Below, piece by piece: positions 1-33,042 of a DNA stretch of 64,000 bases; the stretch's first letter is position 1; every line of letters begins with the position of its first letter. The DNA lies in NCBI GenBank assembly GCA_021792615.1, contig JAJYUJ010000012.1:1-64000 (forward strand), given 5' to 3'. The notes beneath the pieces were generated by a model. The model was not told where the DNA came from and made no database searches. It saw only the letters and a program-made list of their open reading frames with translations. A program made the translations under genes and the position numbers. Source of the stretch: a bacterium. GTDB taxonomy: Bacteria > JAMCPX01.

Positions 1-300
1 TTCCGATCACCCCCACGACCCAAGCCCTGCTTGGGTGCCCCGCCTCCCCCGTCGAGGGGGAGGAACTGAAAATTAAAGATTAAAGATTCAAAATTGAAGA
101 TTTAAGATTAAAGATTATTTCCTCTGCGTTTATCCCCCTCCCTTGACGGGAGGGGCAAGGGGAGGGTGGATATTGCTCCTATTTCACCCCCACCCCGCCT
201 CCCCCGTCGAGGGGAAGAGACTGAAAATTAAAGATTAAAGATTAAAAATTAAAGATTTAAGATTAACCCCCTTAATCCCCCTTGTCAGGGGAAGGAACTG
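1..300. repeat. Mosaic intergenic repeat cluster (modules B, C, A, B', C, D)
   Basis: No gene is visible. The stretch is built from modules that recur elsewhere in the window. Module B (9-64) starts CACCCCCACGACCCAAGCC and ends in a CCTCCCCC/GGGGGAGG hairpin. AT-rich module C (about 71-120 and 226-267) is a run of AAAGATT-like units. Module A (134-169) contains the hairpin CCCTCCC-TTGAC-GGGAGGG followed by AAGGGGAGGGTGG. A short B copy lies at 186-216 and module D (267-297) has CCCCCTTGTCAGGGG. The order A then B with a spacer of about 16 bases is kept in other copies. Confidence 0.85.
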
Positions 301-2104: not shown

Positions 2105-2515
2105 GAACTTAAGATTAAAGATTAAAAATTAAAAATTAAAGATTTAAGATTAAAGATTATTTCCTCTGCGTTTATCCCCCTCCCTTGACGGGAGGGGTAA
2201 GGGGAGGGTGGGTATTGCACCTATTTCACCCCCACCCCGCCTCCCCCGTCAAGGGGGAGGGACTGAAGAAAATAACTTAGATCCACAGTTTGCCTGCGTT
2301 TCCTCTCCTTTTAGGAGAGGATTAAGGTGAGGTCTATGGTTGTCTTGCTCAGACCTCATCCGCACCCTTCCCTGTCGGGTGGGTACCCGTTCCCCTAAGA
2401 GGGGAAGGAACTTAAGACTGAAAATTAAAGATTAAAGATTAAAAATTTAAAATTAAAGATTTAAGATTAACCCCCTTAATCCCCCTTGTCAGGGGGAGGG
2501 ATTTAAAATAAACTC
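2105..2515. repeat. Mosaic intergenic repeat cluster (modules C, A, B', F, E, C, D)
   Basis: About 410 bases without a gene. In order: AT-rich module C (2108-2158), module A (2176-2211), short module B (2228-2268), module F with CCTCTCCTTTTAGGAGAGG (about 2299-2350), module E with CCTGTCGGGTGGGTACCCG (2352-2410), module C again (2420-2467) and module D (2469-2500). Together with the opening cluster it flanks the F0 operon on both sides. Confidence 0.85.
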
Positions 2516-6135: not shown

Positions 6136-6496
6136 AAAAGAAACTCAAAATTCAATATTTAATATTCAATCTTGAATCCCCTATCCTTTCCCTCTTTTTT
6201 TTATTCCTCCCCCTTGTCAATGGGGCAAGAAAGGATTTTCCTTATCAAAGGAATAAGAAAAGGTCTCCCCCTGTCAAGGGGGATTAAGGGGGTTGATCTT
6301 TAATTTTCAGTCTCCAGTCCCACTCCCCTCGACGGGGGAGGCGGGGCACCCAAGCAAGGCTTGGGTCGTGGGGGTAATTTAAAGCAAAACCCACCCTCCC
6401 CTTGCCCCTCCCGTCAAGGGAGGGGGATAATTTGAATCTTTAATCTTGAATCTTTAATCTTTAATTTTGAATCTTCAGTCTTTAATCTTTAATTTC
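6136..6496. repeat. Mosaic intergenic repeat cluster in inverted orientation
   Basis: The modules seen elsewhere appear here as reverse complements: D (about 6263-6300), B (6319-6375) and A (6391-6428), preceded by AT-rich, Pro/Lys-poor sequence and followed by a long C module (6430-6496, TTTAATCTTGAATC-type units) that runs up to the stop codon of the htpX-like gene. This shows that whole composites can sit in either orientation. Confidence 0.85.
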
Positions 6497-11360: not shown

Positions 11361-11490
11361 CGGGAGACCTTTTCTTGCCCCCCCTGATAGGGGGGGATGG
11401 GGGGTTTGAATTTTCTTCTCTGCGTTTCCTGCTCTCGATTTCCTCTCCGAATATTCCCCTCCCTTGACGGGAGGGGTAAGGGGAGGGTGG
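11345..11490. repeat. Mosaic repeats (partial A, D, A) at the 3' end of the Wzy-TPR gene
   Basis: A truncated module A (11346-11368) overlaps the final codons of the upstream gene. It is followed by a D fragment (about 11369-11408, CCCCCCTGATAGGGGGGGATGG) and a full module A (11455-11490). The last base lies 8 bases from the stop of the convergent DUF2283 gene. Confidence 0.85.
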
Positions 11491-12085: not shown

Positions 12086-12200
12086 ACCTCCTCTCCTTTT
12101 AGGAGAGCGGGGTACGGGTCGGGTTGGTCTTGCATTACTTCACCCCCACGACCCAAGCCCCGCTTGGGTGCCCCGCCTCCCCCGTCAAGGGGGAGGGACT
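12086..12200. repeat. Mosaic repeats (modules F and B)
   Basis: An F module (CCTCTCCTTTTAGGAGAGCGGGG, about 12088-12130) followed by a full B module (12140-12199). They fill the gap between the DUF4258 start and the terminator of the large surface-protein gene. Confidence 0.8.
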
Positions 12201-15404: not shown

Positions 15405-15712
15405 AATTGAAGATTAAAAATTCAAAATTAAAGATTAAAGATTTACCCCCTTAATCCCCCTTGACAGGGGGAGACCTTTCTTAGCCCCCCTGATAAGGGG
15501 GGATGGGGGGGTTTTTGGATTTTATTCTCTGCGTTTCCTCTACGTTTATCCCCCTCCCTTGACGGGAGGGGCAAGGGGAGGGTGGATATTGCTCCTACTT
15601 CACCCCCACCTATCCTCCCCCGTCGAGGGGGAGGAATTCAAAATTAAAGATTAAAGATTGACCCCCTGTGTCCCCCTTAGCAGGGGGAATTACAGACATT
15701 AACAAGGGGGAG
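15405..15712. repeat. Mosaic intergenic repeat cluster (C, D, A, B', C, D')
   Basis: In order: module C (15405-15443), D with CCCCCTTGACAGGGGGAG and CCCCCTGATAAGGGGGGATGG (15447-15513), A (15550-15584), B in a variant with CACCCCCACCTATCC (15601-15634), C (15643-15660) and a degenerate D (15661-15712). It runs up to the stop codon of gmhB. No gene is seen. Confidence 0.85.
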
Positions 15713-16334: not shown

Positions 16335-16500
16335 TCCGCCGTCATCCCCCTCCCTTGGAGTCTTTTCTACTATTCCTTTCTTAACCCCCTCCCTTTACGG
16401 GAGGGGGAAGGGGAGGGTGGGTCTTGTTTTAAATCACCCCCACGACCCAAGCCTTGCTTGGGTGCCCCGCCTCCCCCGTCGAGGGGGAGGGATCTTTGAC
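16335..16500. repeat. Mosaic repeats (A and B)
   Basis: Module A in a TTTACG variant (16385-16420) and a full module B (16436-16491) with the usual 15-base spacer, preceded by a fragment CCCCCTCCCTTGGAG (16345-16360). They fill the gap between the M16 peptidase stop and gmhB. Confidence 0.85.
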
Positions 16501-16526: not shown

Positions 16527-19133
16527 TTAGCGAGGGACGAGCACGAGCGTGGTAAACCTCTCCGGTGGAAAATATTTCTTGATGACCGCATTGACATCGG
16601 CCCTTGTTACCCTTTTTATAAACTGAGGGAATTTGATGTAATAATCGATACTGCGATCGAACAGCTCGTTGTAAGCAAGCATACTCGATACGCTCAACGC
16701 CATCTGTTTACGGCTGTCATAATCCGAGAGAATGTAGCGCTTGCTGTTTTCAAGCTCCATATCGTTTACGCCGCCGGTGTACAGCTTCTTGACCTCGGCC
16801 GTTATGACCTTAAGGGATGCGTCTACCTTCTCCGGAGACGTTGAGGTGTAGATGCCGAACCAGCCCTTATTGTTCAGCTTTGCCTCGCCGATGGTCTGCA
16901 CCGCATAGCATATCCCGCGCTTGTCCCGCAATTCCACAAACAGCCTGCCGCTCTGTCCGCCAAGTATCTGGTCCAGAAGCATGATGGCAAACCTGTCCTC
17001 ATGGTTGACCGGCACGGTCAGGGTACCGGTGATGATATGCGCCTGGTTCTTTTCCATGGTATACTTTTCCGTCTTTGTTACATGCCGGGGCTCCTGCAGG
17101 GCCTGAGGGGCAGGCAGGTAGTTTTTCCCGGTTTTAATCGTGGAGAGATAGCGGGCGATCTTTTTTACCATGTCCAGCCTGTCCATATCCCCCACCAGGG
17201 AGACAACGCCGTTTTTGCCTGCCACAAACCTCTGGTAAGTATCCACGAGGTCGGGTCTCTCTATTTTTCTAACGGTACGTTCATTGCCCTTTTCCGGCAG
17301 GCTGAGGGGCGAAGGCCCGTATATCTGCCGTAAAAAAGTATTCCTTGCCTGCAGGCCGATATTGTCCTTGTCCGTCTTGATATCGGACAGAATGTCTGTC
17401 TTGACCCGTTTGATCTCATCTGCATCAAAGGTCGAATTCAGCAGCATGTCCGAAAACAGACCCAGTCCGTCATCCGTAAACTTGTTCAGGAATTCACCGG
17501 TGATGCCGAACGATTGTTTTGTCCTGACCGGCGAAAACAGCCCGGATATCGTATCGCTTTCCCTCTCGATATCGCTTTCCTTCCTGTAGTGCGTGCCTTT
17601 CTTGAACATCATGGACATTATATTGATAAGTCCTGTTTTGTCCCGGGGCTCCAGTGCCGTGTCTCCGAGAAACAGGGCGGACAATGCAACGATCGGTATG
17701 GTATGCTTTTCCTTGAGGATAACGCGCAGGCCGTTTTCGAATGTCGCCATAAGCACATCGCCCGCGTGCTTCAGTGAGTAATCCATGCCTGTACCCGATG
17801 GGTGTACTACGTTCAGATGTTTTTGAGCGGAAGCTTTTTTCTTCGGCAGCAGGGCAACGACATTCAGCCTGTCCGGAGTGAGGTATTTGTTAATCGCATT
17901 GCCTATGGATTCCAGATTTACGTCGTCCACTTTCTTTGTATATTCCATGATGTAGTCAAGCCCGCCCATCTCCACAACGGCCTCGCCTATCTTCATGGCA
18001 CGCTGCTTTACCGTTTCGAGGTCATAGATGAACATGCTTTTCAGCATCTGTTTTGCACGTGCTATCTCATCATGGGTCGGCAACTGGATTCCGGTGTCCG
18101 ATACCGTGCTCATAATAGTATCCAGGGCTTTTTGCAGCTTCCCCGGTTCCGTGGTGCCGCTGATGCTGAAAAATCCGGTATACCTGTTTGCAGAATGCGA
18201 TACCATGATGGAGTCAACCAGCCTGTTTTCATTTTTGACGATGCGCGGCAGCCTTGAGGTATCATTACCTCCGAGAATGTAGGACAAGACCTCCAGGGAA
18301 AAGCTGTCTTCGATCGTTACCGGCGGTGTAATGAACCCCATTGCATAGTACGTGTCTTTTACGTCAATGCTTTTTATAAGACTCTGCTGTTTCCTCTGAT
18401 CCGGCACCCGGGGGCGTATGTGCTCGATGATGCCGTTGGATTTCATGGGCTCGAATGCCTTATAAATCCCCTGCTCCACCTGCTGCTTCGGCATATCGCC
18501 GGCAATCACGATGTTGATATTCGAGGGCGCATACCACTTCTTGAAATGGGTAAATATGCTTTCCCGGTCGAATGAGCTGACGGTATTTTCATATCCTATG
18601 ATAGGTCTGTTGTACGGATGGCCTTTATAGGCAAGTGAGTACAGGGTCAGGAACAGGGTCTGGTAGGTATCATCCTTTCCCCGTTTGATCTCGTCGAGCA
18701 CCACCTCTCGCTCCATCTTCAATTCGTCTTCGTCAAACGAGGGATTGATGATGGTCTGGGCAAGCACATCCAGTGCCCTGTTGAAGTAAACATTTTTTAT
18801 CGTCACGTAGAAAACGGTCTCCTCGAACGAGGTGAATGCATTGATGTATCCGCCAAGGGCTTCGATCTCCTTTGCAATAACCGCTATCTTTTTGTTCGCA
18901 GCGCCCTTGAAAAACATGTGCTCGATTAAGTGGGATATGCCTGCTGATTTTTCCGACTCATCCGCACTGCCGGTATTTACCCACGCCTGTATCGATACCA
19001 GTGGCGTATCGGGTACATGATCGTAAAATACCTTCAGCCCGTTTGGAAGGCTGAATGTCTCTATTGTTTGATATTTATCCGTTCCGGTTCCGCTTGCAGC
19101 GGAAATTGTGTATAACTTTGTGAATAATTTCAT
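16527..19133 (-). CDS. M16 family zinc metallopeptidase, two-domain form
   Basis: The 868 residues comprise four M16 modules, that is a fused active half and inactive half as in pitrilysin-like or PqqL-type proteins. The inverted zinc motif HLIEH is at residues 68-72, and the downstream Glu lies in FDEDELKMEREVVLDEI. The C-terminal half (about 430-868) has the R/Y-type GQSGRLFVELRDKRGICYAV and lacks HxxEH. The N-terminus has no clear signal peptide, so the protein may be cytoplasmic or periplasmic. It stands alone between repeat clusters. Substrates cannot be told from sequence. Confidence 0.93.
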   Translation of the reverse strand: MKLFTKLYTISAASGTGTDKYQTIETFSLPNGLKVFYDHVPDTPLVSIQAWVNTGSADESEKSAGISHLIEHMFFKGAANKKIAVIAKEIEALGGYINAFTSFEETVFYVTIKNVYFNRALDVLAQTIINPSFDEDELKMEREVVLDEIKRGKDDTYQTLFLTLYSLAYKGHPYNRPIIGYENTVSSFDRESIFTHFKKWYAPSNINIVIAGDMPKQQVEQGIYKAFEPMKSNGIIEHIRPRVPDQRKQQSLIKSIDVKDTYYAMGFITPPVTIEDSFSLEVLSYILGGNDTSRLPRIVKNENRLVDSIMVSHSANRYTGFFSISGTTEPGKLQKALDTIMSTVSDTGIQLPTHDEIARAKQMLKSMFIYDLETVKQRAMKIGEAVVEMGGLDYIMEYTKKVDDVNLESIGNAINKYLTPDRLNVVALLPKKKASAQKHLNVVHPSGTGMDYSLKHAGDVLMATFENGLRVILKEKHTIPIVALSALFLGDTALEPRDKTGLINIMSMMFKKGTHYRKESDIERESDTISGLFSPVRTKQSFGITGEFLNKFTDDGLGLFSDMLLNSTFDADEIKRVKTDILSDIKTDKDNIGLQARNTFLRQIYGPSPLSLPEKGNERTVRKIERPDLVDTYQRFVAGKNGVVSLVGDMDRLDMVKKIARYLSTIKTGKNYLPAPQALQEPRHVTKTEKYTMEKNQAHIITGTLTVPVNHEDRFAIMLLDQILGGQSGRLFVELRDKRGICYAVQTIGEAKLNNKGWFGIYTSTSPEKVDASLKVITAEVKKLYTGGVNDMELENSKRYILSDYDSRKQMALSVSSMLAYNELFDRSIDYYIKFPQFIKRVTRADVNAVIKKYFPPERFTTLVLVPR

Positions 19134-19385: not shown

Positions 19386-20165
19386 CTTCTTTAGACCTCA
19401 TCCGCACCCTTCCCTGTCGGGTGGGTACCCGTTCCCCTAAGAGGGGAAGGGACTTAAAATTAAAGATTCAAAATTAAACATTAAAGATTCAAGATTAAAG
19501 ATTTAAGATTAACCCCCTTAATTCCCCTTGTCAGGGGGAGACCTTTTCTTACCCCCCTGATAAGGGGGGTTTTGGATTTCCTTCTCTTTGTTTCCTCTAC
19601 GTTTATCCCCCTCCCTTGACGGGAGGGGTAAGGGGAGGGTGGATATTGCTCCTACCTCACCCCCACGACCCAAGCCCTGCTTGGGTGCCCCGCCTCCCCC
19701 GTCGAGGGGGAGGAACTTAAGAAAATAACTTAGATCCACTGCTTGTCTTCGTTTCCTCTCCTCTTAGGAGAGCGGGGTACCCGTGCGGGGTACGGGTCGG
19801 GTGAGGTCTATGGTCTTCTTCTTTAGACCTCATCCGCACCCTTCCCTGTCGGGTGGGTACCCGTTTCCCTAAGAGGGGAAGGGACTTAAGACTAAAGATT
19901 AAAGATTAAAGATTAAAGATTCAAAATTCAAGATTCAAAATTAAAGATTAAAGATTCAAGATTATTTCCTCTACGTTTATCCCCCTCCCTTGACGGGAGG
20001 GGTAAGGGGAGGGTGGATATTGCTCCTACTTCACCCCCACCTATCCTCCCCCGTCGAGGGGGAGGAACTTAAGACTAAAGATTAAAAATTCAAAATTAAA
20101 GATTAAAGATTATTTCCTCTACGTTTATCCCCCTCCCTTTACGGGAGGGGTAAGGGGAGGGTGGG
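19386..20165. repeat. Largest mosaic repeat array (E, C, D, A, B, F, E, C, A, B', C, A)
   Basis: About 780 bases composed almost wholly of modules: E (19397-19452), C (19453-19512), D (19511-19575), A (19606-19641), B (19659-19713), F (19749-19820), E again (19827-19882), a long C (19890-19970), A (19981-20015), B variant (20033-20067), C (20070-20112), A (20129-20163). The three A copies are nearly identical in sequence and two are followed at the same spacing by B. It separates the M16 peptidase from cinA, both on the minus strand. Confidence 0.9.
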
Positions 20166-20181
20166 TACACGTTCGAAGGGA

Positions 20182-20652
20182 TTATTGCAATTTCTGAAGG
20201 AGCATATTTATTGCCGCTGCGGTTGTTTCCTTTCGATTACCATCTCTATCTTTTTGAAAAATAAATCTTTTTACCTCGATTTCCTTGCCGCTTGCCACAG
20301 CGATATACACAAGGCCGACAGGCTTTTTTGCACTGCCGCCGTCAGGCCCTGCAATGCCTGTTACCGCGATGGCGCAGTCTGTATGCATAAGCCTTTGAAC
20401 ACCCTTTGCCATTGCCTGCGCTACCTCTTTCGACACCGCACCATGCTTTTCCAACATTACTCTGCTGACACGCAGGACCTTGATCTTTACCTCGTTGGAA
20501 TAGCTTACTACCCCGCCCGAAAAATACCGGGAACTGCCCGGGACGTCCGTTACAACCTTCGCAATCAACCCGCCTGTGCAGGACTCTGCTGTCGACAGGG
20601 TCTTGTTGTGCTTTTTCAGAAGTTTACCAAGCTTTATTGCTAATTTTTTCAT
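20182..20652 (-). CDS. CinA C-terminal domain protein, nicotinamide-nucleotide amidohydrolase
   Basis: The 156 residues match the stand-alone PncC/CinA C-domain that deamidates NMN to NaMN in pyridine nucleotide salvage. Visible signatures are TAESCTGGLIAKVVTDVPGSS (active-site Ser region), FSGGVVSYSN, GAVSKEVAQAMA and AVTGIAGPDGGSAKKPVG. The N-terminal MoaB-like domain of full CinA is absent, as in E. coli PncC. Confidence 0.94.
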   Translation of the reverse strand: MKKLAIKLGKLLKKHNKTLSTAESCTGGLIAKVVTDVPGSSRYFSGGVVSYSNEVKIKVLRVSRVMLEKHGAVSKEVAQAMAKGVQRLMHTDCAIAVTGIAGPDGGSAKKPVGLVYIAVASGKEIEVKRFIFQKDRDGNRKETTAAAINMLLQKLQ

Positions 20653-32456: not shown

Positions 32457-33042
32457 TTGCACAAAAACAAACACTCCCGACCTCATTCGCACCCTTCCCT
32501 GTCGGGTGGGTACCCGTTCCCCTAAGAGGGGAAGGGACGGGAGACGGGAAACTAAAAATTAAAGATTAAAGATTCAAGATTATTTCCTCTACGTTTATCC
32601 CCCCTCCCTTGACGGGAGGGGCAAGGGGAGGGTGGGTTTTGTTTTATTCACCCCCACGACCCAAGCCCTGCTTGGGTGCCCCGCCTCCCCCGTCGAGGGG
32701 GAGGAACTTAAGAAAAAACTAAGATCCACTGCTTGTCTTCGTTTCCTCTCCTCTTAGGAGAGGGGGGTACCCGTGCGAAGCACGGGTCGGGTGAGGTCTT
32801 GAGTGAGGTCTTGGGTCGTCTTGCTCAGACCTCATCCGCACCCTTCCCTGTCGGGTGGGTACCCGTTCCCCTAGGAGGGGAAGGGACGGGAGACGGGAAA
32901 CTAAAAATTAAAGATTAAAGATTCAAAATTAAACATTAAAGATTCAAGACTGAAGATTTAAGATTACCCCCTTAATCCCCCTTGTCAGGGGGAGACCTTT
33001 TCTTACCCCCGGATAAGGGGGGATGGGGGGTTTGAATTTGGA
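32457..33042. repeat. Mosaic intergenic repeat cluster (E, C, A, B, F, E, C, D)
   Basis: The last cluster in the window: E (32480-32537), C (32545-32580), A (32599-32634), B (32649-32704), F (32740-32826, with GGGTACCCGTGCGAAGCACGGGTCGGG), E (32830-32890), C (32901-32967) and D (32966-33040). It lies between tldE and the NtrC-type regulator, both on the minus strand. The order matches the array at 19.4-20.2 kb in several stretches. Confidence 0.88.

Follow-up and report, generated by a model that had tools for sequence, protein, structure and literature searches.

TCACCC-tailed palindromic doublets resembling REP elements in a 780-nt array beside cinA and in bacteria of several phyla

The stretch of DNA analysed here – the first 64,000 nt of contig JAJYUJ010000012.1 in assembly GCA_021792615.1 (GTDB lineage JAMCPX01), referred to below as the window – carries a 780-nt array of short repeats at 19386-20165 (+), flanked on one side by an M16 peptidase gene (16527-19133, -) and on the other by cinA (20182-20652, -). 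The array reads C / heptamers / E-F / A-B / D-C / heptamers / A-B / heptamers / A, and its parts, all on the forward strand, are an E-F doublet with its tails outside and hairpins inside (19512-19573), an A-B doublet whose B contains an extra 22-nt hairpin (GACCCAAGCCCTGCTTGGGTGC, from 19667; doublet at 19606-19713), a D-C doublet (19756-19882), a 7-bp AAGATTA repeat between doublets (19888-19964, with further heptamers at 19454-19512 and 20071-20112), an A-B doublet lacking the extra hairpin (19980-20065), and an A that closes the array about 18 nt short of the cinA stop codon (20129-20164). Since the array holds three A (19606, 19980 and 20129) and two B, the last A is unpaired. An Rfam scan of the window returned one tRNA and nothing else.

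Module A, about 40 nt long, consists of a hairpin followed by the tail GGGGAGGGTGA, and B of the tail TCACCCCCACC followed by a hairpin. The complement of A, reading TCACCCTCCCC and then the hairpin, and B, reading its tail and then the hairpin, each begin with a C-rich tail starting TCACCC and continue into a hairpin with the loop RTCRA; because the two read alike, they are the same kind of unit, inverted relative to each other. A and B are thus REP-type palindromes in inverted orientation, as in BIMEs and REPINs. The ends of the unit are sharp: around 83 copies of A, the profile shows T-Y-T-C before the hairpin and near-random bases upstream beyond about position -5, and downstream the bases are near random beyond GGGTGA. 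The tails are almost invariant over 89 doublets, and the spacer between them varies from 2 to 49 nt, a few of the longest spacers containing an extra hairpin or reflecting a wrongly set tail start. An apparent helical phasing of spacer length was dropped, the signal being dominated by one genome.

Modules C, D, E and F had been taken to be separate from A and B. On the contrary, D-C (GGGTGAGGTCT-linker-AGACCTCATCC) and E-F are made of parts similar to those of A-B, and are inverted doublets of the same kind. Further D-C doublets lie in the window at 2298-2408 (+) and, with an extra hairpin within D, at 32745-32884 (+), and a further E-F doublet at 15446-15516 (+). Outside the window, a C-D-C chain occurs on contig C21 and is common to G008, a genome of another genus; D-C is also present on C12. 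The orthologous C-D-C chains in two genera (loci L377 and L378) differ by a single clean block: where the left C of one genus has GCACCCTTCCCTGTCGGGTGGGTACCCG, that of the other has TATCC.

The initial annotation had placed A-spacer-B at 19386-20165, 134-216, 2176-2268, 15550-15634, 16385-16491 and 32599-32704, in a fixed order. All six are present with spacers of 13-15 nt, and the order is stricter than was claimed, as a longer series, A-B-D-C, is found three times in the window (2176, 19606 and 32599) and again where contig C45 begins. With refined boundaries, the doublets outside the array lie at 134-217 (+), 2175-2260 (+, followed by D-C), 15549-15634 (+, preceded by E-F), 16385-16490 (+, extra hairpin within B) and 32599-32704 (+, extra hairpin within B, then D-C); another, absent from the first list and with a worn B end, is at 6325-6427 (-). 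The window also holds a solo A without B (11455-11490, +), at the very start of the contig a truncated B (7-64), and a D-B chimera (12177; about 12099-12197, +) in which D stands in place of A before B.

Two other short elements accompany the palindromes. AT-rich 7-bp repeats of the ATTAAAG type separate the GC-rich palindromes at 72-117, 2111-2159, 6428-6493, 19454-19512, 19888-19964 and 32902-32966, and are found in other parts of the genome as well as in same-genus relatives. The 22-nt hairpin (GACCC..GC...GC..GGGTRC) behaves as a clean present/absent block inside B and D units (19667-19688, in the B at 16385-16490 and 32649-32704, and in the D at 32745-32800), so that deleting it from B gives the shorter B exactly; it also occurs alone elsewhere in the genome, at C24:25616 and C7:78177 (loci L027 and L028).

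Across the whole genome we counted 31 A hairpins (at most two mismatches; the reversed control pattern gave no matches) and 22 B hairpins, including one with three mismatches (control, one forward and one reverse match), and with almost no control matches these copies are not due to chance. On the same strand and within 100 nt, B follows 18 of the 31 A by pattern; inspection raises this to 22, the four added doublets having a worn, interrupted or different B. The nine A without B are at C22:11457, C22:20131 and C22:11350 and on C20, C38, C46, C51, C56 and C77. Conversely, 18 of the 22 B come after an A, the exceptions being at a contig edge, in the D-B chimera, after a degenerate A (C59) and as a solo copy (C71). 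B is therefore almost always found with A, and A is often alone. Solo A show a trend towards more mismatches than A in doublets (means of 1.17 and 0.73, p = 0.10, 6 and 11 copies).

On one model, A+B is a single structural or RNA unit of about 100 bases with three hairpins, its central stem of GGGGAGGGTGG with CACCCCCACC spanning the spacer and maintained by selection. In its favour, A and B do co-occur, and nearly every doublet has the core pairs GGGTG/CACCC. The stem was checked for covariation over 89 doublets and gave no meaningful compensatory change. Its core pairs are near-invariant, an A-C mismatch is kept in 80 of the 89 and a G-A mismatch in 75, and two-sided changes are confined to the outermost pair, with three such cells against nine broken ones. 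An invariant core with conserved mismatches points to conservation of sequence and not of pairing. Folding likewise disagreed with three hairpins: with RNA parameters, 41 of 42 doublets form one long A:B hairpin, and separate hairpins are the best RNA fold only in two of three tested window copies with the extra 22-nt hairpin in B. With DNA parameters, local hairpins win by small margins in 29 of 42 and the long hairpin in 13. Folding z-scores are -3.4 to -4.1 for the A-B copies of the window, -7.7 (19756-19882) and -4.6 for D-C, and -3.8 and -3.2 for E-F, with one long hairpin predicted for the longer D-C copy and for both E-F copies. Given also the spacer variation and the many A without B, we regard a selected three-hairpin unit as highly improbable.

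A different kind of association between A and B was seen in the loops. Doublets were collected with a pattern in which the stems were fixed, one pyrimidine or purine was free at two places per loop, and tails and spacer were wholly free; it matched in 19 of 50 genomes, and its reversed control gave no match. In 69 of 78 distinct doublets the last A-loop base is complementary to the first B-loop base (Fisher p = 1e-8), and the count still exceeds that given by shuffling within genomes (64 expected, p = 0.019). This means that the A and B alleles travel together, through pairing or joint inheritance alike; the between-genome part of the linkage could come from shared mutation bias or ancestry. 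The second loop pair shows no linkage across the 78 doublets, a C in A always being accompanied by an A in B.

A role in gene expression – as transcription terminators or 3′ mRNA stabilisers, kept in place and immobile – would suit GC-rich intergenic hairpins, most of which in the window lie just past a stop codon. Yet no T runs follow A or B, and no A or B hairpin of the array scores in a terminator scan, in which only E and F of the array match, on the strand opposite to the flanking genes. Elsewhere, naive ORF calls do not show that 3′ gene ends are clearly preferred to 5′ ends, and near-identity across phyla would not be needed for such a role, which leaves this explanation with very little probability.

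The wider distribution was surveyed with the exact A pattern over GTDB genomes, which yielded at least 118 stretches; a set picked in this way is uninformative on variation in A. Among the matches listed are Nitrospirota, Deltaproteobacteria, Planctomycetes (including the complete genome of Brocadia pituitae), Spirochaetes, WOR-3, Omnitrophota, Falkowbacteria and further groups; one match is in Geotalea sp. SG265, whose genome has a RefSeq accession. Near-identity over about 40 nt would span Nitrospirota, Deltaproteobacteria, Planctomycetes, Spirochaetes and candidate phyla, and MAG contamination can explain some of the cross-phylum matches, though not all. Copies are predominantly intergenic (51 of 73 non-edge copies, versus about 16% of random positions). 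Plasmid and phage collections gave no matches, and 2.9 million viral contigs gave 8 stretches. Sequence strings of the repeat occur in 111 of the papers searched, of which the 20 listed are unrelated to bacterial repeats.

Among the 75 listed cross-phylum copies with full flanks, 45 have an inverted partner, which lies downstream for 25 and upstream for 20, versus 1.8% at random positions; same-orientation neighbours (5 of 75 on each side) slightly exceed their background of 2.2%. Pairing is therefore strongly non-random and inverted, both tails-in and tails-out, and A-B is one of two junctions in an alternating chain. The idea that A+B is the real unit thus holds in part: both among dispersed copies and in other phyla the doublet turns up much more often than chance would give, and the loop alleles of A and B are linked. 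It falls short in that A alone is common, an outcome that the initial annotation had itself named as a refutation: this is so for 9 of 31 copies in this genome and across phyla for about two thirds of copies (two thirds of the 75 have no tails-in partner).

The array itself can be compared with the orthologous cinA-M16 site of relatives. In G003 it holds a C-like unit with a few heptamers and an E-like hairpin, and in G004 parts of C and A; heptamers are all that G002 shows there, and G005 has none of these; neither A nor B was found in the orthologous intergenic region of G002 or G005. With short remnants or nothing at the relatives' sites, the long array is most simply a lineage-specific expansion beside cinA.

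Six dispersed A-B copies are each enclosed by an outer inverted repeat akin to CAGRCTGTCCGACAAT, which makes up a larger palindrome (C30:5958, C33:32854, C67:42341, C34:1571, C45:59294 and C41:1871; loci L072, L074, L078, L091, L092 and L084). Five of the six have identical 4-mers at both ends, TTAA four times and TTTA once, and the TTTA copy lies in the loop of another palindrome, of which an empty form is present at C7; this filled/empty pair is consistent with insertion into TTTA. Such features would be expected if a DDE transposase moved a MITE that has the terminal inverted repeat CAG(A/G)CTGTCCGACAAT, 4-bp duplications of TTAA/TTTA and A-B as mere filling, and other places in the genome also carry the outer repeat. 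Against this, the outer repeat is absent from the array copies in the window, and likewise from most A copies in other phyla, and A has sharp ends of its own. We therefore think it unlikely that a MITE accounts for A-B as a whole.

REPs are usually explained through a linked RAYT transposase. The genome has two Y1 transposases, and A/B flank neither of them. The first, on C31, is short and of the IS200 type, with a hairpin of its own at the end; the second, at C22:65653-65982 (locus L032; 323 aa), is on the same contig, 1.7 kb past the window end, and is flanked by its own inverted repeat, AGGGGTCAGCCCTTGACATTGGACATT. None of nine family genomes has a Y1 gene flanked by A/B, and in the 19 genomes with doublets, none of 86 Y1 places lies within about 4.5 kb of an exact-pattern doublet. 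Several RAYT-like genes in those 19 genomes have other palindromes at both ends, providing a working positive control, and G034, possibly an incomplete MAG, has five doublets and no Y1 match. The unit ends show TYTC and GGGTGA / TCACCC, with neither a GTRG head (GTAG or GTGG) nor an unpaired CGTC tag, CGTC occurring only in the hairpin loop. Without these tags and without an A/B-flanked Y1 gene, A/B lie outside formal RAYT-linked REP/REPIN membership despite their alike anatomy. The doublet architecture and the Y1 gene on the same contig do speak for canonical REPINs mobilised in trans by a RAYT (IS200/IS605-like TnpA_REP); weighed against the missing head and the flanks of the Y1 genes in the nine family and 19 other genomes, we judge that explanation to be a poor candidate.

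The resemblance to three described systems is nonetheless close. BIMEs are built of REP units, which are short, imperfectly palindromic and intergenic, have a conserved unpaired tail, and follow one another in alternating orientation with variable linkers (PMC2817692). A/B agree with REP/BIME criteria in being multicopy (31 A, 22 B), mainly intergenic, about 40 nt long and in inverted alternation, and differ in having no GTRG head, in mixing three doublet types (A-B, D-C and E-F) with AT-rich heptamer arrays, and in the optional extra hairpins nested inside units. REPINs are REP doublets that form a hairpin (Bertels and Rainey 2011, PMC3116915). They share with A-B the two inverted palindromes, the variable spacer, a doublet that folds into one long hairpin (with RNA parameters), a large number of doublets and some ordered clusters; in A-B, however, the conserved tails face each other inside and there is no linked RAYT, and the greater divergence of singlets seen in REPINs is here not significant (p = 0.10). 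CGTC-tagged REPs form inverted dimers in several phyla and have no dedicated transposase (Di Nocera et al. 2013, PMC3733652). A/B match this description, but have CGTC in the hairpin loop, both in B and in the complement of A, and not as an unpaired end tag, their tail being TCACCC. To our knowledge, no linked transposase was found for the CGTC REPs, which left them as a puzzle.

We consider it probable that A/B are a REP/BIME-type palindrome family organised in head-to-head doublets, mobile at least partly as doublets through a putative enzyme acting in trans, with local expansion into the array. The units are sharply bounded GC-rich hairpins with a near-invariant tail (ending ...GGGGAGGGTGA in A and beginning TCACCCCCACC... 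in B), and the BIME/REPIN-like doublet can form one long hairpin in single strands. The invariant TCACCC tails would probably be recognised by a DNA-processing enzyme in trans during replication, and the units may spread in doublets and, in part, singly. The 780-nt array beside cinA would then have been built by local slippage or recombination, probably aided by the flanking ATTAAAG heptamers, and a subset of dispersed A-B copies apparently travels within the larger MITE-like palindrome with its 4-bp target duplications.

Closely similar repeats, intergenic in bacteria of many phyla, seem to spread without a recognisable transposase of their own. We suggest, more tentatively and with less confidence than we place in the account of this genome, that A/B may belong to one family of palindromic doublets with TCACCC tails, shared across phyla with near-identity over about 40 nt and spreading within and between genomes by a putative enzyme outside the known REP-class links. 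A/B have neither tag and no linked Y1 gene, yet are near-identical in many phyla, and the family offers a large comparative set with which to ask what mobilises such palindromes and which of the two, doublet or single unit, replicates.

One near case in the search for flanking transposases, locus L300 of the planctomycete G051, was rejected, as its doublets lie inside neighbouring genes and do not flank the transposase. The two neighbouring genes, whose products we take to resemble gas vesicle proteins, contain REP doublets in frame (at about 480-620 and 2360-2510 of the locus), which add about 35 residues to each product.
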